A stretch of 64,000 bases of DNA, taken from positions 39,745,676-39,809,675 of the forward strand of contig CM049311.1 of the NCBI GenBank assembly GCA_026874595.1. Direction: 5' to 3'. This DNA is from Sipunculus nudus (Eukaryota > Annelida > Sipuncula > Golfingiida > Sipunculidae). A program made the position numbers and the translations under genes. Shown here piece by piece: positions 931-52,960 of this stretch. Within the stretch, counting starts at the first letter, position 1. Each line of letters opens with the position of its first letter. The notes under the pieces are model-generated. The model was given only the letters and a program-made list of their open reading frames with translations, was not told the DNA's origin and made no database searches.

Positions 931-1061
931 TCGCAGTTCTACTGAAGCACATGGGGCACCCTCACACATGGGTAGCTATAGACGGATCTCTGTACAGATA
1001 TCACCCAAAAATACACGATATCATGACAACGTGCATCTCCAAGCTCGCCCCTGATAACAAG
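928..1061 (+). CDS. HK: Hexokinase, penultimate coding exon
   Basis: With the G carried over from base 342, this exon reads GIAVLLKHMGHPHTW, then VAIDGSLYRYHPKIHDIM, then TTCISKLAPDNK. The V-A-I-D-G-S-L-Y-R-x-H-P motif is the strongest hexokinase signature in the window; in the family this stretch (VGVDGSxYxxHPxF) belongs to the C-terminal nucleotide-binding part of the large domain. The exon is 134 bp and ends in phase 0 at AACAAG|GTAACT. Both borders are unusual. The acceptor is the last of a row of six duplicated acceptors, and the final ~20 exon bases plus ~38 intron bases are the apparent source of the 58-bp minisatellite at 4.0-6.6 kb. A frame-shifted reading of the same bases (ending HLQARP) is a shadow. 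Confidence 0.93.
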
Positions 1062-1102
1062 GTAACTACATGATAGACTTACGAATCTGTCTCTCTACTT
1101 AA
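1041..1102 (+). repeat. Exon/donor segment homologous to the 58-bp minisatellite unit
   Basis: The end of the hexokinase exon, its donor and the next ~40 intron bases align over ~58 bp with the unit of the array at 4010-6608. Shared blocks include CTCGCCC, TGATAACAA, GTAACTA, TAGACTTA and GAATCTGT. I count roughly 85% identity by eye with the closer units. This is the only copy under coding constraint. Confidence 0.8.
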
Positions 1103-1147
1103 CACTGAACACAATTTTACTGGATTATTGTCTTAACAATTTGCGTG

Positions 1148-1200
1148 TCTACTCGCCCATCATAACAATGTAACTAAGAATTGTATATAGTCTTATGAAT
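1148..1200 (+). repeat. Isolated copy of the 58-bp unit
   Basis: TCTACTCGCCC followed by ATAACAATGTAACTAAGAA and TAGTCTTATGAAT repeats the unit about 100 bp downstream of the exon copy. It lies between the exon copy and the large array and contains a GTAACT donor-like site. Confidence 0.75.
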
Positions 1201-1274
1201 ACCGTAATTGATGTAATTAGCGCACCAGGTGCTCTCAAATTAAAATTTGATAAATACTTTAGTATTCCAAAAAG

Positions 1275-1292
1275 CCCCCCCCCCCCCCCCCC
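1275..1292. repeat. Poly(C) run, 18 bp
   Basis: Uninterrupted C18 in the last hexokinase intron. Confidence 0.95.
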
Positions 1293-1642
1293 ATCCTCAA
1301 GCGGGTCTTCTTAGTTACAGTGGTGTCACGTCTTACGATCCGCTGTCAGATATTGACACTTTTGTGTGACATCGCAGCACGTTCGCGGTGATCCAGGGAA
1401 GCCAAAGAGCCCGAATGATGATTGTATAAAAGTTTGATTTAAAATAACTATCCAAACGATATATTTAGTGTATTCGTCATCTTAATACCAACATCTTACG
1501 TAAGAGCAGTATCCACCTGCTGCTGATATAAACAAGCCGGCACATTTTGGTCGAAGCTGGGGCGCCATCTACCGCTAGTCACAGGATAAAAAAGAAACGA
1601 GCGCCAAAAAACCCAAACATGCCTCCTCTCATTTTATTTTGA

Positions 1643-1825
1643 TTATTTTTTAAATATCACCTGAATCAACGCACTTATATATGTGTAACGATCTCTCACA
1701 AATCGCAAATGCTGTTCGACGAAATCCGCGAGTCTTTGCTGACCCTCAGATCTAATTATCAAGTAACTGTACCGAAAAAGTTCCTCACGGCCGATGCTCA
1801 AAAGGGACGAGAGGTCATCCCCCAT
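1643..1825 (-). CDS. Unrecognised 60-aa ORF in hexokinase intron
   Basis: Opposite-strand ATG ORF starting MGDDLSSLLSIGREELFRY and ending ISALIQVIFKK. The same frame is open upstream to 1927. The product is charged and would be largely helical (blocks such as RLADFVEQHLRFVRDRY), which is less random-looking than most small ORFs in this window. An AATAAA on the minus strand (TTTATT at 1633-1638) follows the stop by only a few bases. Alternatively, the CAG|GTGATA near its end could be a splice donor, making it an internal exon. I recognise no family, no upstream promoter is evident, and it could still be chance. It lies antisense inside the hexokinase intron. Confidence 0.25.
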   Translation of the reverse strand: MGDDLSSLLSIGREELFRYSYLIIRSEGQQRLADFVEQHLRFVRDRYTYISALIQVIFKK

Positions 1826-2971
1826 TTTCCCATTTTCATCAGTAGAATCCGTGAATTTAATATGCGTATGTAGATGTAAAGACAGCGATAAAAAAATTTC
1901 TGTTCCCCCTCGTCGATCTTGACACACAGTGACCCGCTTCTATTTTCAGCTTTCAGATTGTTTATTTGCATAAAGTCTTCCCTAACGATTAGTTCAGAAA
2001 TGCCAATCAGAAACTCAACATTTAAGGACACGCCCTGCACAATCAATTCATTTATAATATTTTAAGACATGAAAGATTGTCCGTCGAGCGTATAAATATT
2101 TTTTTTTCAGTGAGGGCAAGATGTTTAAACTGATATTTACTGACGATCTGTTGACCTCAGATCACGTAGTATCCGTCTAGTACAGTGTATATACAGGGGG
2201 GAGAGCACTGCATGCTTTCTAGTAGTGCCCTGCTTGATGTTACTTAATGTCCCTCCTTTAGCTATATAGTCAAACATAATCTAGACGACAAAACCTTAAC
2301 TATGACACCTTATTTGTTTCATTGCTCAAAAGAGAAAATAAAACATATTATCCAGGTGCATAGTAAGGAAGCGATGAGACCAAGTTTCTAACCAGAAATG
2401 AAATGTTGCTTATAGCTTTTACTGATTGGTTGTTAAGTTTCAGGCTCATTCATCATGGAAATCCAAGCATAAGACTTACTGCCTGGTCTCAAAATAGTGC
2501 CATCTAGTGACTCAAACAGAAAATTGACGCAAAATTATGCCTCAAAGCGGGGCTTGTAGCTACCTGCCCTTTTTTGGTTTAAACTTATTAGAAATGGCTC
2601 ACACACCCAGGCAAAGACCCACGTTTGTTTATTATCAGCAAACATTATCTAGCGGCCAGTCAGACAACCAAGAGTTTTGCAAATTGCGTTTTGCAACTAG
2701 GTACCGTTCACCTTCTGCACATATGCAACCAACCTCCATCACTTATATGTTTTTATTCCCTCTTTGCAAACATAAGGCGTATGTACCTTGCCCACAAACA
2801 GGCTGTACACACACAAGCCATTACATCCATCACAGGGACGTTAGCAAAACATTTCTTAGCAGCTTCTTAGTTCATTAATATGTACGCAGCCAGAAATAAT
2901 AAACAAGTGACCCATGCGTCATGACGCTCAGCCGACTGAAATGTTGACAATATGTCCTTGCACAGGCTAGT

Positions 2972-3975
2972 AATTAAGATAATGTAGGTGGTATAATCAT
3001 TCATGCATATATGCTTAAGTTCATCAAGACCCATAAGCACACCAAATTTAATAACAAGCCATCCAGCCTTTCCTTAGAAATCTGGTAATTTGTATATACT
3101 TGTTACAACATTTCTGGGGTGCTCAAACATGCCCCGTAACTCAAAGAATATAGGTCACAGAGACCTAATTTTAGAAGAACTTTGGGCGATCTCTCGGGAT
3201 ACAGAGGTTCGTGTTTGTAGTCTTTACGAATACAATTTATGCCTTGTTAAAAATCTTGTGTTCTAAAAAAAATACAGTAATTTTTTTAATTAAGATAATG
3301 CACGTGGCACAACCATTCATGCCTAGTAGCTAAAGTTCAGTAAGGCCCAAAAGCACACCAAATTTGATGAAAATCCATGTAGCCGTTCCTGAGGAATCTG
3401 GAAATTTGTGTGTATTTTACATTATTTTTGGGGTGCTCAAACACGCCCCGTAACTCGGGGGAATATAGGGCACAGTGACCTAATTTCAGGTTCCTGAGGA
3501 GAACTTTGGGTGAACTCTCCTGATACAGAGATTCATGATTCTAACCTTTACGGATGCGATTTGTGCCTTGTTAACAGACCTAGTGTTATGAAAAAAGGGT
3601 AAAAGTTTGTTAAAATTAGGATAATGCAGGTTGCGCTACCGTTCATGCCCAGTAGCTAAGGTTCATTAAGACCCATAAGCACACAAAATTTGATAACAAT
3701 CCAGCAAGTCGTTCCTGAGGATTAGGCAATAAGTGTGTATTTTTTATTTATTCGGGGGGGGGGGGGGGAGAGGTAAACAGGCTCCTAAACTCGAAGAATA
3801 TAGGTCACAGGTTTCTGAGGAGAACTTTTGAGGATCTCTCAGGATGCAGAGGTTCATGATTCTAGGCTTTATGGTGACGATCTGTGCCCTGTTAACGGAC
3901 GGACGGCCGGTCGGACGGACGACGGACAAAGGGTGACCGCTAAAGCTCAGATAATTTTCAGTCAGCGGAGCTAAA
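2972..3975 (-). repeat. GTCCG-type interspersed element with three ~320-bp internal repeats
   Basis: Three diverged direct copies begin near 2972, 3288 and 3612. They share blocks such as AAGATAATG, GACCCATAAGCACAC, AAATTTGAT, GTGCTCAAACA, CCCCGTAACTC, GAGAACTTTGGG and GTGCCTTGTTAA. The last copy runs into a purine-strand GGACGGACGG stretch (3896-3926) and ends at GGAGCTAAAAAA. Read on the minus strand it begins TTTTTTAGCTCC, then GTCCGTCGTCCGTCC, then GTTAACA. That head resembles the element at 11029-11380, so the two belong to one broad family of GTCCG-rich repeats. No protein is encoded. A 15-bp G run interrupts the third copy. Confidence 0.65.
3754..3768. repeat. Poly(G) run, 15 bp
   Basis: Uninterrupted G15 inside the third copy of the ~320-bp repeat. 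It is absent from the first two copies at the equivalent place, so it is a later expansion. Confidence 0.95.
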
Positions 3976-4009
3976 AAATCGACAGATAAGCAAGTGAGTA
4001 GCTAACTTT

Positions 4010-6608
4010 ATGGAACTGTTATCTGACTACTCGCCCTTGAAAATAATGTGACTAAATGGTAGTCTTTAAAATGTGTATACCTGTCTACTCGCCCTTGATA
4101 ACAATATGACTAAATGTTATAGAATTTGTTTATCTGTCAACTCGCCCTTGGTTACGATGTTACTTAATGGTAGTCTGAAGGATCTGTTTATCTGTTTACT
4201 CGCCCTTGATAACAATGTAACTATATGGTAGTCTTAAGAATGTGTTTATCTGTCTACTCGCCCTTGGTTACGATGTTACTAAATGGTAGTCTTAAGAATG
4301 TGTTTATCTGTCTACTCGCCCTTGATAACAATGTAACTATATGGTAGTCTTAAGAATGTGTTTATCTGTCTACTCGCCCCTGATAACGATGTTACTAAGT
4401 GGTAGTCTTAAGAATCTGTTTATCTGTCTACTCGCCCTTAATAACAATGTGACCAAATGGTAGACTTAAGAATCTGTTTATCTGTCTACTCGCCCTTGAT
4501 AAGGATGTTACTAAATTGTAGTCTGAAGAATATGTTTATCTGTCTACTCGCCCTTGATAACGATGTTACAAAATGGTAGTCTTAAGAATCTGTTTATCTG
4601 TCTACTCGCCCGTAATAACAATGTGACCAAATGGTAGACTTAAGAATCTGTTTATCTGTCTACTCGCCCTTGATAAGGATGTTACTAAATTGTAGTCTGA
4701 AGAATATGTTTATCTGTCTACTGGCCCTTGATAACGATGTTACAAAATGGTAGTCTTAAGAATCTGTTTATCTGTCTACTCGCCCTTGATAAGGATGTTA
4801 CTAAATTGTAGTCTGAAGAATATGTTTATCTGTCTACTCGCCCTTGATAAGGATGTTACTAAATTGTAGTCTGAAGAATATGTTTATCTGTCTACTCGCC
4901 CTTGATAACGATGTTACAAAATGGTAGTCTTAAGAATCTGTTTATCTGTCTACTCGCCCTTAATAACAATGTGACCAAATGGTAGACTTAAGAATCTGTT
5001 TATCTGTCTACTCGCCCTTGATAAGGATGTTACTAAATTGTAGTCTGAAGAATATGTTTATCTGTCTACTGGCCCTTGATAACGATGTTACAAAATGGTA
5101 GTCTTAAGAATCTGTTTATCTGTCTACTCGCCCTTGATAAGGATGTTACTAAATTGTAGTCTGAAGAATATGTTTATCTGTCTACTCGCCCTTGATAAGG
5201 ATGTTACTAAATTGTAGTCTTAAGAATATGTTTATCTGTCTACTCGCCCTTGATAACGATGTTACAAAATGGTAGTCTTAAGAATCTGTTTATCTGTTTA
5301 CTCGCCCTTGATAACAATGTTACTAAATGGTAGTCGTAAGAATGTGTTTATCTGTCTACTCGCCCTTGATAACAATGTAACTATATGGTAGTCTTAAGAA
5401 TGTGTTTATCTGTCTACTCGCCCCTGATAACGATGTTACTAAGTGGTAGTCTTAAGAATCTGTTTATCTGTCTACTCGCCCTTAATAACAATGTGACCAA
5501 ATGGTAGACTTAAGAATCTGTTTATCTGTCTACTCGCCCTTGGTTACGATGTTACTAAATGGTAGTCTTAAGAATGTGTTTATCTGTCTACTCGCCCTTG
5601 ATAACAATGTAACTATATGGTAGTCTTAAGAATGTGTTTATCTGTCTACTCGCCCCTGATAACGATGTTACTAAGTGGTAGTCTTAAGAATCTGTTTATC
5701 TGTCTACTCGCCCTTAATAACAATGTGACCAAATGGTAGACTTAAGAATCTGTTTATCTGTCTACTCGCCCTTGATAAGGATGTTACTAAATTGTAGTCT
5801 GAAGAATATGTTTATCTGTCTACTCGCCCTTGATAACGATGTTACAAAATGGTAGTCTTAAGAATCTGTTTATCTGTCTACTCGCCCGTAATAACAATGT
5901 GACCAAATGGTAGACTTAAGAATCTGTTTATCTGTCTACTCGCCCTTGATAAGGATGTTACTAAATTGTAGTCTGAAGAATATGTTTATCTGTCTACTGG
6001 CCCTTGATAACGATGTTACAAAATGGTAGTCTTAAGAATCTGTTTATCTGTCTACTCGCCCTTGATAAGGATGTTACTAAATTGTAGTCTGAAGAATATG
6101 TTTATCTGTCTACTCGCCCTTGATAACGATGTTACAAAATGGTAGTCTTAAGAATCTGTTTATCTGTCAACTCGCCCTTAATAACAATCTGACCAAATGG
6201 TAGACTTAAGAATCTGTTTATCTGTCTACTCGCCCTTGATAAGGATGTTACTAAATTGTAGTCTGAAGAATATGTTTATCTGTCTACTGGCCCTTGATAA
6301 CGATGTTACAAAATGGTAGTCTTAAGAATGTGTTTATCTGTCTACTCGCCCTTGATAACAATGTGACCAAATAGTAGTCTGAAGAATCTGTTTATCTGTT
6401 TACTCGCCCTTGATAAAGATGTTACTAAATGGTAGGCTGAAGAATCTGTTTATACGTCTACTCGCCCTTAATAACGATAATACCAAATGGTAGTCTTTAG
6501 AATCTGTTCATCTGTTTCGAACGTGATTACAATGTGGCTGTAAGTAGTCTTAAAAATCATTTTTATGTCTACCTGCCCCATTATAACAATTTGACTGAAT
6601 CATGACAG
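4010..6608 (+). repeat. 58-bp minisatellite, about 45 copies, derived from the hexokinase donor region
   Basis: Tandem units built around CTACTCGCCCTTGATAAC, then ATGT(A/T)ACTA, TGGTAGTCTTAAGAAT and GTTTATCTGT. The register is exact: the variant GTGACCAAATGG occurs at 4449, 4623, 4971, 5493, 5725 and 5899, and every interval is a multiple of 58. Three unit types alternate in the centre of the array (TTAATAACAATGTGACC, TTGATAAGGATGTTACT, TTGATAACGATGTTACA), giving a 174-bp higher-order repeat. The edges (4010-4200 and 6470-6608) are more diverged than the centre. Many units keep GTAACT, the donor hexamer of the hexokinase exon at 1062. The array lies in the last intron of that gene, in the same orientation. 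Confidence 0.95.
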
Positions 6609-8435: not shown

Positions 8436-8519
8436 TGTACATTGATCCTTGCTGAGGACGGGAGTGGGCGTGGGGCAGCCTTTGTGGCGGCGGTGGCCGT
8501 GCGACTGGGGACGCTGTGA
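8436..8519 (+). CDS. HK: Hexokinase, terminal coding exon
   Basis: The acceptor GGTTTCAG is followed by an in-frame exon reading CTLILAEDGSGRGAAF, then VAAVAVRLGTL and TGA (8517-8519). The E-D-G-S-G-x-G-A-A motif followed by a short A-V-x-R-L tail is the characteristic C-terminus of animal hexokinases and helps form the ATP site. The junction with base 1061 is phase 0 and gives LAPDNK|CTLILAEDG, co-linear with the family. The three exons together supply about the last 120 residues. The preceding intron of 7.4 kb is large and holds the 58-bp minisatellite. Confidence 0.93.
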   Translation, partial: CTLILAEDGSGRGAAFVAAVAVRLGTL

Positions 8520-46442: not shown

Positions 46443-46800
46443 TGTGTGTGTATTCGCGATCTGATATCACTCTTTTAAGGGTTAGAGCATGTGTGATGTG
46501 GGCGGAACATATATGGTTAACAATGTAATCGTCAAAAGGTTGTCATTCGTGACCGTACGTTCATGATTTTAGAGCAAGGGCCGGTTTCTTTATTTATTTT
46601 CCATCATGCACAGTTGCCAACTCAAGTTCAAACGTTCTGGTATGTTATCGTGAGGCAGGTACTTTCTTATTCAATTAAAATAAACTTAAAATTTGAATCT
46701 TGTTTCACCAGCTTGAGGTTCTAACATTAAACGGGTATAACAAAAACCCGAATGCTTCCTCTTGGTTTCAGTCTCATGTTTTTTAAAGAGGAAATAGTTA
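45107..46800. other. Candidate intron / spacer
   Basis: AT-rich. It includes a (TA)n tract at 46384-46436. A 73-codon ATG frame at 45276-45497 (starting MSKRPNLKILL) has no recognisable domain. Nothing else is supported. Confidence 0.4.
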
Positions 46801-46839
46801 TAAACCATTAGCTGAGACTTAAAGTCCAGACCCGGTATC

Positions 46840-47700
46840 CCCGACTCATGCAGCTTCTTGAATTAAACATATAATTCTAAAAGTCAGTTTGTATGCAGTG
46901 TCTCTGGCTATTGTTTCTAAAAGTAAACAAGTGATACTCAAAGTGTGGAGTTTGTATCGTAATTATGTTATCATAATAAAAGTCTGAATTACATATCATT
47001 GGTTTATATTTCTGTATAGAAACCGACTATACCCTGAAAAAAGTACCTGTAACGCCGGCCAATGTTTCATAAATTGATGATACGCAAACTACGAATCCTG
47101 TATCACAGCTAACGTTTCGTCAACGAGATATTTTATTGAAAATACCAATCTTGTACCATCGGCCAGTGTTTCTTAAATCAAGATGATGATACCTAAAGTC
47201 CTAATCTTGAATAACTGAATCCTATTTTTGTTATACATAAAAAATATGATTAGATCAAACACAGTCGCAATCCTGTTTTACTGCTGACGTTTCTTCAGAT
47301 ATGTAAGATAATATACTAAATTTACAGAACAATGGAACTTGAAATTCGAATCCCGTATCACTGCTCATATTTCCAAAGTTAAACAAATAATTGTTCCAGT
47401 CCTGCATATACCATTGTTGACGTTCAACATTGTTAACAGATAATTTACCAAAACGGCCGTATCATGTTTTACTACTCGCGCTTATATATATATAGATATA
47501 AAACTCGACAATACAAAGTCCGAATCCTGTACAAATGATTATACTTTAATTTCTAATCACTAATTAATGTATCAAAATTTAAACAGATGAAAGTACGAAT
47601 CCTCTTTCACTGCTCATGTTTCAGAATTCAAACAGATGACATTGAAAGTCCGAATCCTATATATCACGGAGTCTTGTCTCTTTTGTTGAACAGTTGATAC
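46840..47700. repeat. Degenerate ~55-70-bp tandem repeat
   Basis: Diverged units share AAAGTCCGAATCCTGTATCAC, a TGCT(C/G)A(C/T)GTTTC block and AAACAGATGAT, with variable spacing. Examples start near 47090, 47250, 47345, 47515, 47590 and 47655. The last unit grades into the clean 51-bp array through GTATGCATCACTGGTTGATG at 47715, suggesting an old array from which a newer one was amplified. Confidence 0.6.
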
Positions 47701-47734
47701 AAGGTGCGAAACATGTATGCATCACTGGTTGATG

Positions 47735-48360
47735 TTTCTTTATCTGGGTTGCATGAACGTTCAAGTCTCGTACTAACTGTTGGTATTTCTTTATCTGGAT
47801 TGCATAAACGTTCAAGTCTCGTATTAACTGTTGGTATTTCTTTATCTGGGTTGCATAAACCTTCAAGTCTCGTACTAACTGTTGGTATTTCTTTATCTGG
47901 GTTGCATGAACGTTCAAGTCTCGTATTAACTGTTGGTATTTCTTTATCTGGGTTGCATGAACGTTCAAGTCTCGTTCTAACTGTTGGCATTTCTTTATCT
48001 GGACTGCATGAACGTTCAAGTACCGTATTAAATGTTGGTATTTCTTTATCTGGATTGCATGAACGTTCAAGTCTCGTATTAACTGTTGGTATTTCTTTAT
48101 CTGGATTGCATGAACGTTCAAGTCCCGTATTGACTGTTGTTATTTCTTTATCTGGATTGCATGAACGTTCAAGTCTCGTATTAACTGTTGGCATTTCTTT
48201 ATCTGGATTGCATGAACGTTCAAGTACCGTATTAATTGTTGGTATTTCTTTATCTGGATTGCATGGACGTTCAAGTCCCGTATTGACTGTTGGTATTTCT
48301 TTATCTGGATTGAATATACGTTCAAGTCCCGTATCGACTGTTGGTATTTCTTTATTTAAA
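47735..48360. repeat. 51-bp minisatellite, about 12 copies, open on both strands
   Basis: Units of TTGGTATTTCTTTATCTGG, then TTGCATGAACGTTCAAG and T(C/A)(C/T)CGTATTAACTG, with low divergence. Because 51 is 17 codons, frames stay aligned. The + strand reads a 17-residue repeat around SLSGLHERSSLVLTVGI through ~230 codons, and the minus strand reads one around NPDKEIPTVNTRLERSC through ~248 codons, with another minus frame also open over part of the array. The minus-strand frame begins MTETSYATDAS in non-repeat DNA at 48410, so translation cannot be excluded. Openness in several frames at once argues that it is a by-product of the repeat. Confidence 0.9.
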
Positions 48361-48500
48361 ACGAGAGACCTAATGTCAGATGCGTCTGTTGCGTAAGATG
48401 TTTCTGTCATTTTTCAAATTTGAGAATGAGTCTGTAGCCCAGTTTTAATTTTCTACATACGGTCAGTCCGAGCTAGTGTGACGTTTACCCTTGTTAACAG

Positions 48501-48736
48501 TCCTTTTGGTTGTCACCGCTATAACTTATCTGGAATACGATGGATGTCATGAAAGTATTAACCAACATATGATATCTTGCTCAAGATTGACTCTCGGCGA
48601 AAGCCATGCATATTTAATGATGTCAGAGGTTACTAAACTTTGGTGGCGCTGTGATTACTCACCAACTTTTTGGATTGATTTTAATGAAACTCATTATAAC
48701 TATTTACCAATTAATGGTCTTTCTCACCGGAAATAA
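48501..48736 (+). CDS. Candidate second exon of small secreted/membrane protein
   Basis: The acceptor CTTGTTAACAG ends at 48500. Two bases complete the phase 1 codon from 45106, and the frame then reads LLVVTAITYLEYDGCHES, INQHMISCSRLTLGESHAY, LMMSEVTKLWWRCDYSP, TFWIDFNETHYNYLP to a TAA at 48734-48736. The two exons together are exactly 300 bp, giving 99 residues. With exon 1 the hydrophobic segment becomes longer, suggesting a signal anchor. The remainder carries three cysteines and an N-E-T glycosylation sequon. AATAAA at 48732-48737 overlaps the stop, so a polyadenylation signal would have to lie there or further on. No family is recognised. An additional exon may exist, since a donor before the TAA cannot be excluded. 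Confidence 0.35.
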
Positions 48737-48851
48737 ATCCTATGCTAAACCTACACGGTCACAGGATCTACGACGGGCGTATTATACACCCTTGTGGGTG
48801 CTCTTGTTACAGTCGCCAATTACCTGACACATTTTTACCCTACCTGTTGAA

Positions 48852-49067
48852 ATGCTGATGCAAGTATACTTTATTTGGATCGTTGTTTTATACACGCCAC
48901 GTGTAATACTGTTTGATGCCTCTTTACATAGAGTGACAACAAACGTGAAAATCCGAGGAAACGTTTACCCGCAACATGATGGATTGAGCGGGTGTACACA
49001 CGTTCACGGCCTGGTCGGTGCTGGAGGTAATAGATGTATGCTCTGGGAAATGAGGTGCCGCTTATAG
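48852..49067 (+). CDS. Unrecognised 71-aa ORF with leader-like N-terminus
   Basis: ATG ORF starting MLMQVYFIWIVVLYTPRVI, hydrophobic enough for a signal peptide, followed by VKIRGNVYPQHDGLSGC and ending WEMRCRL. It has three cysteines and lies 115 bp after the candidate exon ending at 48736. It might be a separate short secreted product, a further exon, or chance; a minus-strand ORF covers the same bases. The acceptor-like CTTTACATAG within it suggests an exon reading as an alternative. Confidence 0.22.
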   Translation: MLMQVYFIWIVVLYTPRVILFDASLHRVTTNVKIRGNVYPQHDGLSGCTHVHGLVGAGGNRCMLWEMRCRL

Positions 49068-49327
49068 CACGGGCGTGGTCACTAAACACACGTCATGTCA
49101 CCACAGTCACGTGTCAACATGCCAAATCGGCTGACCACACAGGGAGAGTGTATGACAAATGAATTTCCTCGCAATGCCATCTTTTGCAACAATAAAATGT
49201 ACATCACCGGCGTTCTTATATTTTATCATGATTCAGATAAAAAAAAAAAGCACACACATATGTATCTTTTGCTTAAAGAAGTTACAATGCCGAAATAAAC
49301 GAAGTTGGACTCGATGATGCTGAACTC

Positions 49328-49690
49328 ACGCTCTATAATGGACTACTCGGCAGCAGAAATCCAAGTTCGGTGATGGACAGCTCGGCAGCAGAAAACCAGG
49401 CTCTATGAAGGACAACTCGACAACAGAAATCCAGGCTCTATGAAGAACAACTCGACAACAAAAATCAAGGCTCTATGAAGGACAACTCGACAACAAAAAT
49501 CCAGGCTCTGTGATGGACAACTTGACAGCAGAAATCCAGGCTCTATGAAGGACAACTCGACAACAGAAATCCAGGCTCTGTGATGGACAACTCGGCAGCA
49601 GAAATCCTGGCTCTGTGATGGACAACTCGGCAGCAGAAATCCTGGCTCTGTGGTGAACAACTCGGCATCAGAAATCCTGGCTTTATGATG
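49328..49690. repeat. 35-bp minisatellite, about 10 copies
   Basis: Units of GACAACTCG(A/G)CA(A/G)CAGAAATCC followed by (A/T)GGCTCTATGAAG. As 35 is not a multiple of three, each unit moves to the next frame. The minus strand is nevertheless open through three successive frames, giving a 35-residue periodic peptide (105 bp) within a 129-codon frame. It lies downstream of the 51-bp array but has an unrelated unit. Confidence 0.9.
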
Positions 49691-50282
49691 CAATAAATGT
49701 GTCAACAAATACGGCTGTCCCTTCCGTGCAATTGATCTCACCATTCCCATGAGCAAAATGTACTTACAGTATAAAATAAACCCCACATACATCTCATAAA
49801 GTCTTATAAAACCTACAATGATCTACTCATCTACTATGGCATTTGTGTCAGAAACTCAACAGGACGGTTCAAACTCTTATAATAGCCTCGTTGAACTTTA
49901 TGCGGAGTGGGTCAGGATTCGTACAAGACTATACGTATAATGACTCCACTCGCAATACTTTAGGACTCGGACTTGTATGTAGACTAGCTTGAGTACAAGA
50001 AATAATCATTGGCATAACCAATGAATGCAGTAACATTCGTATCACAATGGTGCTTTTTCAGATAAAACCCAACTACTACACATACAACCAACCGAGGCAC
50101 CGACATCATGCCACATCATAATGGGTATAATATGCTGTATTTTTCTGCCCCCAATAGGACTGGATCTTCTGATTAACTGGGACTCTGCAAAGTTTGCGTT
50201 TTGTGACAACATGTTATCTCATAAATAACTCGCAGCTGGTCGTCCTACTCGTTATATTTACTGAACGTATATACCCATAAAT
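49691..50282. other. Spacer
   Basis: Unique AT-rich DNA, no supported feature. Confidence 0.5.
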
Positions 50283-50515
50283 CTGACATGCAACCTGTGA
50301 CATCCGATTTTTAATGTGTGCGCAAAATGACATCCCCCATGAGCGGTTTCGAGAAACTGAGAGAAATCCTGTCAGGGTTTGATAAGGGCACCGGGATGGG
50401 AGACGACAGTACTCAGAACACAGCATTCAGGTGAGAATCTATCTTGGAGAGAGTTTGATGGCAAGGGGACGAGTATAGCAAAGTTTAGCATGGAATAACG
50501 TTTTGGATGTTTTGT
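50283..50515 (+). repeat. Dispersed repeat family, copy 1
   Basis: Shares with 60469-60650, in the same orientation, GTGACATCCG, ATGAGCGGTTTCGAG, GAGAAAT, a TATCT(T/C)(G)GA block, GGGGACG(A/T)GTAT and GAATAACGTTTT. The order is conserved and the overall length is similar (~180-230 bp), with a ~45-bp insertion or replacement in this copy. Non-coding. Probably a short non-autonomous transposable element. Confidence 0.6.
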
Positions 50516-50589
50516 TTAAGCCTTTTGTATCTCAGGTTTTATTTGCAAGGTTGTATGAATAAACTAGAAATCATATAACCAGCAATTAT

Positions 50590-52960
50590 ATTAAAGAAGG
50601 TTCTTCAATTTATTACTCATCCAGATTAGGCTAGACTGATTTAAAATATGTACATAAGGGAAAATATAATTAAACATATCAGATTTATTTTATCATACCA
50701 CAAAACGCAAAATAAAAAGTTTCAAAGCAGACTTTGGAAAAGCGTTTAATTTTTTGGAATGACCACATATACAACATACTCAAGCCCAAAACACACTAAC
50801 GCGCGCGTCAAGCGTCACGCGTCAAGTGTCAAATCTGGAAAAATCGCTCCAATCTATTTATCAATGACAAAACAGACTAATGCGCGTGTCACGCGCGCGT
50901 TAAGCGTCAAGCGTCAGCTATCGCTCCTGGAGCGATTTTTGACGCGTGACGCGCGCTACCCGCGTGGGGATTCCTGATAATGATATAACTAAATAGAGGG
51001 TTTCTCTCCCCAGCACTCAAATTCTATATAAAACTGCGGGTGAAACGTTTGTTATAATTCATTGAACTATAATTATTAATTTGTATCTGGGTAGAAAACA
51101 TGAAACAAAGCAACACAAATATATAAATATCGTTCAGAATAGTGACTGAGTTCTGTCATATTTAGAACAGGTCACAAAAGATATATATTTGTATACAAGT
51201 AATCCAACGCTGATTATCGAAATTACTATTTTTACAAAGATAAACAAAAAAAAATGCAATAGGTGCTTGGTTAATACCCTTCAATCTGACGCGTGTCGTG
51301 AGCGTTGTAGCCGCGTTAGTGTGTTTTGAATTTGTCGCGTGACGCACGCGTGACGCTTGACGCGCGCGTGACGCACGCGTTAGTCTGTTTTGGGCTTGAC
51401 AATGTCTGTCCATATTTTGGAAAATGTCTGAACATTTTGTATACAAATACCCAAAATTGTCTCATGAACAGATTTTGGGCATCTACATTTTTTACCTTTA
51501 TTATAGAGGTGTTAGACAAGGGTGTTCCCTGTCAGCTTCTTTCTCCATTATTGCAACTGACATTCTAGCAGCGCAGTTAGGAAAAATACAGATGTTGAAG
51601 AGGCTCCAATAACAGGTAGTGAACATATAATTATTAAGTATGCTGATGAAACAGTACTGTTTCTGACTGGGAGGGAAGCCTTAGTGGGTGAGGCTATAAA
51701 TTATTTTTTTTTAAATTAAAGTTTTACCGGTCTTAAAGTTAATTTTGAAAAACTTCAGCATTGCTACTTACAGACCAAACAGATAACCAAGAAAACCTAA
51801 AATCTTTAGGATAACATACAAGCACAGGTTCGATAAAAATGCTCGGTATATAATTTCACCCGGATTGGAGAATATTTCAAAGAAATATTTAGTAAAATAA
51901 AATTATGCATCAACAGATGACCATGTAGGAACATGACTTTGTCAGGAAAGATTTGCATTATAAAGTCCTACATTTTATCCCAATTAATATTTGCACTACA
52001 ATACCAATTAACCTATGTAAAAAAAATAATTTAACAATTAAATTAGCCTATTTCTTTGGAAAGGCCAAGATAAAATAAAAAGATCAACTATAATAGCTCC
52101 ATTAGACGCTCCATGTTTTAAATGATGCACCTACATTCAAAAATTGATCCGTTTAATAAAGATACCAGGGGATAAACTGATCATCAGTTTAGAGTGATTT
52201 GCTCATCATTAGTTAGTAATATTCTTGATAATAATGCAAATTACTTGGGTAAGACTTTTATTCAATTCTGCCAAGTGGTATTAGAGGCTTGGTGCAAATA
52301 CAACTTTTATAATACTGATTTCCTTCCCTGAATTTCTGTCACACCAAATAAATTTTAAATCACATTCTAACATTAATGAACGAATTTACAGAATATGGGG
52401 GTCAGTATCACAAATGACTTTATGAAATACTCTTAAAAAAGAATTACCTTTCTTTCATGTAAAGGATTCTAAGAAAAAGTATAGCAGATATAAGCTTCTT
52501 ACATTATACCAGCATCATGACTGCTATTTTAGCTAGCTGGAAGCGAACAATAAAAGTAAGACCTTCTCTCTATTCACCTTATGTTACCGCAAAGTAGACA
52601 AAAATCATGACAATGATAAAATGTGACTATAATTATGTATACTGAAATCTTATTCAAAATGTATGTAGACCCTTGTAATATTATTATACGTCGAAACAGG
52701 GATTTAGATCGGAGAACGGAAAATATATATATTTAAAGTTTTTTAAAGTATAAAAACGTTACTTTTTTCAGAAAAACTCATTTGACATTTGAATATAAAA
52801 TCCTGGGGAGGTGTATACCTCTCAGTCCACTCCTGCTTGTATAGGATAAAACCTGACACTGACAAATGTCCTCTCTGTATAAAGAAGAAAGAGGAACATG
52901 TTCATTTCTTTTATGATTGTGAAAAAAAAGGCATAAATATTTGTTCTGAAGAACTAGTTG
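50590..52960 (+). pseudogene. Decayed L1/Tx1-like LINE (reverse transcriptase region)
   Basis: Many stops and frameshifts, but ordered hallmarks survive. ADFGKAFNFLE at 50727-50759 corresponds to motif A of the reverse transcriptase. LNILYTNTQNCLMN follows near 51430, then GVRQGCSLSASF from 51508, and KYADETVLFL near 51636, where the catalytic YADD has become YADE. FLWKGQDKIKRSTIIAP from 52051 and a C-terminal CPLC...H...C knuckle (52867-52920, CPLCIKKKEEHVHFFYDC) complete the order. These match L1/Tx1-type ORF2 proteins. The endonuclease domain is not visible upstream. The relic is split between motif A and LNILY by the GC-rich inverted-end element at 50779-51393. The element is inactive. 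Confidence 0.8.
50779..51393. mobile_element. GC-rich inverted-end element nested in the LINE relic
   Basis: The left end CAAGCCCAAAACACACTAAC, then CGCGCGTCAAGCGTC, is mirrored at the right end (reverse complement CAAGCCCAAAACAGACTAAC, then GCGTGCGTCACGCG). Subterminal tracts consist of short GCGTCAAGCGTC/ACGCGC motifs. A second inverted pair lies inside the left half: AAAATCGCTCC at 50839-50849 and GGAGCGATTTTTGACGCG near 50930-50947. The interior is AT-rich and encodes no transposase. Codons of the LINE resume directly at the right end (FGLDN at 51391 onward), so this is an insertion of about 0.6 kb. It is probably a non-autonomous DNA transposon. Confidence 0.65.

Follow-up and report, generated by a model that had tools for sequence, protein, structure and literature searches.

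The window, a stretch of 64,000 nucleotides of Sipunculus nudus (contig CM049311.1, here C6), carries in its first 8.5 kb the last three of the eleven exons that were read for a hexokinase gene; exon 1 lies ~13.5 kb upstream of the window. The genome of this animal measures 1.43 Gb. The joined C6 exons give an intact hexokinase reading, with Pfam matches to PF00349 (2.3e-59) and PF03727 (4.5e-55) for a query from which the sixth exon was left out. The exons and the repeats that surround them are as follows:

200-342, + strand: hexokinase exon 9, reading VEK|DTDDDLTNTSQVLQEL...LLSA|G; placed by AG/GT borders and reading frame, with Pfam PF03727 on the joined exons.
758-933, + strand: array of six copies of 30 bp that holds the exon 10 acceptor, detected by TRF; its unit includes TTATTGCAG|GTATCG.
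928-1061, + strand: hexokinase exon 10, reading GIAVLLKHMG...ISKLAPDNK.
1044-1101, + strand: first unit of the 58-bp array, made of 18 coding bases, the donor AAG|GTAACT and 40 intron bases.
1102-1147, + strand: second, decayed unit; its score of 21 is reached by 10 of 2000 shuffles.
1148-1200, + strand: third unit, with AAT|GTAACT; its score of 46 is reached by 0 of 2000 shuffles.
1198-2157, + strand: interspersed repeat A; two fetched copies match 1198-2153 and 1195-2157.
2972-3978, + strand: interspersed repeat B, inside which a sequence of ~316 bp recurs (TRF 2972-3743); the right end is set by copies elsewhere.
4015-6608, + strand: bulk of the 58-bp array, which resumes in register with 1200 and from 4030 on comprises 45 units.
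8436-8519, + strand: last hexokinase exon (exon 11), reading CTLILAEDGSGRGAAFVAAVAVRLGTL followed by a stop.

Downstream of the hexokinase gene, the window also holds a 23-kb satellite at 16694-39651, with a 36-bp unit in about 632 copies and 93% matches. Two further minisatellites are found at 47728-48355 (51 bp x 12) and 49330-49690 (35 bp x 10); no Pfam domains were detected around these two in six frames of 46700-50700.

The end of exon 10, together with its splice donor, displays the sequence of the 58-bp repeat unit. The exon border at 1044-1096 aligns ungapped with the TRF consensus at a score of 56, with 43 of 53 bases identical; the first 18 of these (1044-1061) are coding and the remainder are intronic. 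Dinucleotide shuffles of 1030-1101 score 13.7 on average and 31 at most, and 0 of 2000 reach 56. The correspondence between exon end, donor and array unit that was pointed out in the initial annotation thus stands well apart from shuffled controls. A scan of the window in 72-base segments, moved by 24 bases at a time and leaving aside 1009-1224 as well as the array, gave 25 as the best other score against the unit.

From the exon onward, 1044-1200 forms three consecutive units with a joint alignment score of 98. The copy at 1148-1200, at first described as a single intermediate, is confirmed as a copy, but it is not single, as the decayed unit at 1102-1147 is also present. TRF places the main array at 4019-6515, with period 58 and 43.1 copies, and decomposition into units gives 45 between 4030 and 6608, of which the last is partial, in agreement with the ~45 copies first estimated. 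The whole array therefore has 48 units, 3 before an insert and 45 after it. All have the same orientation and sit within one intron, between the end of exon 10 at 1061 and the start of the next exon at 8436, again as first described. Identity to the consensus drops at both ends of the array: units 2 and 3 have 37 of 58 identical bases each, the first two units after the insert 49 and 47 of 58, the inner units 52-57, and the last three 49, 43 and 26 (the partial unit). A genome search with the 58-bp unit gave 43 matches at one candidate place, all within the array and none elsewhere; neither the exon copy nor that at 1148 is among these matches, and isolated weak copies in other places would therefore escape as well.

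The insert, within about 1198-4014, parts units 1-3 (1044-1200) from the 45 later units. It contains the two interspersed repeats listed above. Of the 44 matches to repeat A other than the window itself, 8 begin at 1195-1201 (query positions 1-7). Among 40 scored of 3383 candidates for repeat B, many copies elsewhere end at 3975-3982, chiefly at 3977-3978. When the flanks are joined at 1198-1200/4014-4015, a single in-register alignment with short gaps only is obtained. The segment 3979-4012 was considered as an array unit and dropped, since its score is matched or exceeded in 1765 of 2000 shuffles and it is thus not unit-like; for this reason the right edge of the insert is only partly explained. 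The minisatellite is one array that starts inside the exon and is split by inserted mobile DNA.

The donor-like sites of the array differ from the real exon 10 donor. GT is found at the donor place in 41 of the 45 array units and G at position -1 in 0 of 45. The commonest forms are GAT|GTTACT (18 of 45 units), GAT|GTTACA (9) and AAT|GTGACC (7), while AAT|GTAACT occurs in 4 of 45, plus the unit at 1148-1200. Donors were scored with a small matrix built from 23 donors of three hexokinase genes. These real donors span 3.4 to 12.5, and that of exon 10 scores 9.0; the AAT|GTAACT units score 6.1, one array unit of another form 4.2 and the remainder 2.6 or less. A score of 5 or more is reached by only 4 of 45 array units, and copies equal to the real exon 10 donor number 0. 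The earlier statement that many units keep TAACAATGTAACT was accordingly too generous, and the dozens of donor-like sites ascribed to the intron are mostly weak. As the frame past the real exon 10 donor meets TGA in the fourth codon, use of a downstream donor would truncate transcripts.

Both ends of exon 10 carry border arrays. In the 30-bp acceptor array, of which the exon part is 6 bases only per unit, five upstream acceptor copies are found 30, 60, 90, 120 and 146 bases before the real acceptor. Each of the five retains at least 17 of the 18 core bases, and four of the five are in frame with the stretch open, at 10 residues each (ORF 744-1073).

Comparison with paralogs bears on the order of events. 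A donor occupies the corresponding position in two paralogous hexokinase genes, one on contig C13 and one on C1. Exon 10-type copies at this donor were not found in C13, and in C1 the score is 17, compared with 56 in C6; the DNA fetched for the two paralogs did not yield their exon 11. Since both paralogs share the donor position without the array, the intron is probably older than the array. The initial annotation proposed a direction from exon border to array, with the exon copy encoding a normal hexokinase segment. The protein of exons 9-11 does align with solved hexokinases (PDB), and the alignment runs through the exon 10/11 junction. This direction is likely, given the coding constraint, the paralog donors that lack an array and the presence of the unit at this place only. 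In addition, 4 of the 10 positions at which the exon differs from the array majority carry a minority allele that is present within the array, where 2.3 or 1.4 would be expected under two nulls (P 0.13 or 0.04); this sharing weakly favours the exon as ancestor.

The paralogs differ from the C6 gene in one other respect. The intron between exons 3 and 4 of C6 (L005 3064-4790; C6:39733563-39735289) interrupts what is a single exon in both paralogs, and it was either gained in C6 or lost in both.

Arrays of this type are found at other exon borders. A border of a located exon was counted as positive when a junction-crossing copy with a score of 40 or more was present within 4 kb. The C6 gene has 4 positive borders out of 20 (exon 1 donor, exon 5 acceptor, exon 8 donor and exon 10 donor), or 5 of 20 if the exon 10 acceptor, seen by TRF, is counted. 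The paralogs have 1 of 16 (C13) and 0 of 17 (C1). The additional arrays of the hexokinase genes are:

C6 exon 1 donor: 46 bp x 7; the real donor is matched exactly in 6 of 6 copies.
C6 exon 5 acceptor, L005 5125-5291: 81 bp x 2.1 with 100% matches; the acceptor and no fewer than the first 27 coding bases are duplicated.
C6 exon 8 donor, L005 9198-10000 and L006 1-177 and 2284-3703: unit of about 35 bp.
C13 exon 7 donor: 42 bp x 23; 15 of 21 copies have a score no lower than that of the real donor.

The exon 5 acceptor duplication is probably recent, because its copies match at 100%. In the exon 8 intron, the exact donor GAA|GTAAGT is present in 33 of the 68 copies found.

Kinase exons, which were not chosen for repeats, provided an unselected sample of 111 edges. 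Of these, 31 are from nine loci with neighbouring exons, a part of the sample that favours short introns, and 80 are from 40 small partial-domain exons with at most one stop. The limit on exon length was about 310 bases, with one exon of 327 included and one of 321 left out. Kinase edges are approximate, as they represent ends of domain matches, and the 40 short loci have flanks of 550 bases, beyond which distant copies would escape. Thirty further kinase loci enter the tally of arrays and stand outside the border count. After the sequences were read, junction-crossing copies were accepted at 3 of the 111 edges:

L045, kinase exon donor: 89 bp x 2.4; 1 of 1 copy scores at least as high as the real donor.
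L056, kinase exon donor: 65 bp x 8.9; 7 of 8 copies equal or exceed the real donor in score.
L089, kinase exon acceptor: two diverged copies.

Several loci flagged by score were dropped on reading. The repeats of L065 and L066 are not at a border, the copy in L047 does not cross one, and in L075 the exon side only is copied. L048 has the intron side only, ending at the acceptor, and in L052 the array begins ~8 bases inside the intron. Donor copies of usable strength are thus few in the 58-bp array and many in the arrays of C6 exons 1 and 8, C13 exon 7 and L056.

The 58-bp array is very probably a "mirage", the name given to minisatellites that arise when a segment lying across an exon-intron border is duplicated in tandem. 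Its tandem units span a real border and the border itself is one of the units, as is also the case at the exon 1 donor, the exon 5 acceptor, the exon 8 donor and the C13 exon 7 donor. Furthermore, both 5′ and 3′ borders are represented, in several genes of one genome. The process would have started with a tandem duplication of the segment across the exon 10 border. Copies downstream, within the intron, would be free of coding constraint, and the copy adjacent to the exon would keep the reading frame. Growth may have proceeded by slippage or unequal crossing-over, with the edge units decaying and the inner units being homogenised. The exon-proximal donor, and the acceptor at the other side, presumably are still used for splicing, and the duplication would for this reason be close to neutral. 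The decoy donors of the 58-bp array are without G at -1 and weak for the most part; many of those in the other arrays of the gene are intact.

Mirage repeats were previously known mainly from amphioxus. In the publications consulted they are presented as minisatellite-like tandem duplications over exon-intron borders of Adh3, globins, troponin C and PGBD5; the globin genes concerned are BflGb6 and BflGb9 (PMC3087553, PMC3902484). The same passages state that mirages may affect both borders, are unstable in length, seem to leave regular splicing undisturbed and may seed introns (PMC3087553, PMC3902484), and RT-PCR is mentioned in one of them as suggesting regular splicing (PMC3087553). As far as these passages describe them, amphioxus mirages resemble the arrays reported here in the involvement of 5′ and 3′ borders, in units of 10 to 160 bp, in the presence of several affected genes per genome and in edge units that escape homogenisation. 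On the other hand, the arrays here have many copies (48 units at exon 10, and 68 copies found for exon 8), one exon has an array at each of its borders, and mobile DNA splits one array. The host also belongs to another lineage, cephalochordates being the first described, and amphioxus genomes are far smaller than 1.43 Gb. A twitchin-kinase-like exon of this genome has its best match in 1kob of Aplysia (64 bits, compared with 59 for MYLK4 2x4f and 47.5 for twitchin 1koa); a search for the molluscan haemocyanin domain PF14830 gave no match, which by the nature of that search says little about absence. Mirages by that name outside amphioxus were not found in the literature searched, which takes in little of the subscription journals.

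A further comparison is with a minisatellite that carries splice donors, which we take to be that of the 6-16 gene. That array bears donor-like sites, as does the present one. According to a title cited in PMC2572611, the minisatellite bears splice donors and the extra donors serve the transcript. In the strength of its array donors the 58-bp array falls short of this type, in which array donors are used, whereas many copies of the C6 exon 1, C6 exon 8, C13 exon 7 and L056 arrays are of usable strength. Border repeats also occur in human duplicated genes, as noted in part of PMC2812944.

Other readings have been weighed against a mirage. That the exon border resembles an unrelated satellite by chance can practically be dismissed: the border score is reached by 0 of 2000 shuffles, orientation and intron are shared, and three consecutive units run from the exon onward. 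A dispersed satellite as source of the array is not supported, the unit being found by genome search at one place only. It is highly improbable that the intron itself was gained from a tandem duplication of an exon segment. Introns gained through tandem duplication of segments that carry AGGT are described in PMC4974935 and PMC2812944, and according to PMC3087553 such a model takes tandem copies with AG|GT as its starting material. Tandem copies of splice signals are alike in the two situations. However, the array here probably arose in an intron that already existed, and the two paralogs hold the donor at the matching place without an array. An idea that we regard as quite unlikely is that the arrays are kept for a role in splicing, as spare donors and acceptors or as upstream acceptors that add 10-residue blocks to the hexokinase. 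The conserved cores of the five upstream acceptors, four of them in frame in an open stretch, and the 33 exact donor copies in the exon 8 intron are consistent with such a role. Nevertheless, an insertion would land in the RAAQLLSAGIAVLLK stretch, which aligns with other hexokinases, the 58-bp array has no copy equal to the real donor, and unit length and copy number vary widely among borders.

It is also conceivable, although rather unlikely, that exon borders in this lineage, or the C6 gene in particular, are hot spots at which transcription or splicing raises breakage or slippage, so that minisatellites are born there above chance. Border copies alone do not prove a preference, because repeats fill much of the hexokinase introns; in a control, 90 of 450 random positions in three hexokinase loci score 40 or more, which exceeds the border rate. 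In the placement model each TRF array falls at random within its intron and may reach into the exon by one unit at most. Border-crossing TRF arrays in the C6 gene number 4 of 8, compared with 0.73 expected (P = 6e-4), and the exon 10 donor array, counted as non-crossing owing to its insert, would give 5. This P value is, however, post hoc, as the gene was picked for one such exon. In C13 1 of 9 arrays crosses (P = 0.2) and in C1 0 of 5. In the kinase sample, made up of the nine loci with several exons and the 40 small exons, 20 of 23 TRF arrays lie away from an exon edge. Outside the C6 gene, a neutral birth process such as that outlined for mirages suffices.

If borders were hot spots after all, border arrays would continually supply alternative splice sites and, later, new exon ends, and the C6 hexokinase gene, with 5 of 20 tested borders, would be an extreme case. 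Border arrays mark their founder: unlike ordinary minisatellites, they have a known first unit, because coding constraint holds the exon copy. The exon 8 intron, in which the donor recurs in 33 exact copies, also offers a natural test of how the spliceosome chooses among equal sites. Junction-crossing copies at 3 of 111 unselected kinase edges suggest that border arrays are common in this animal and could be counted genome-wide.
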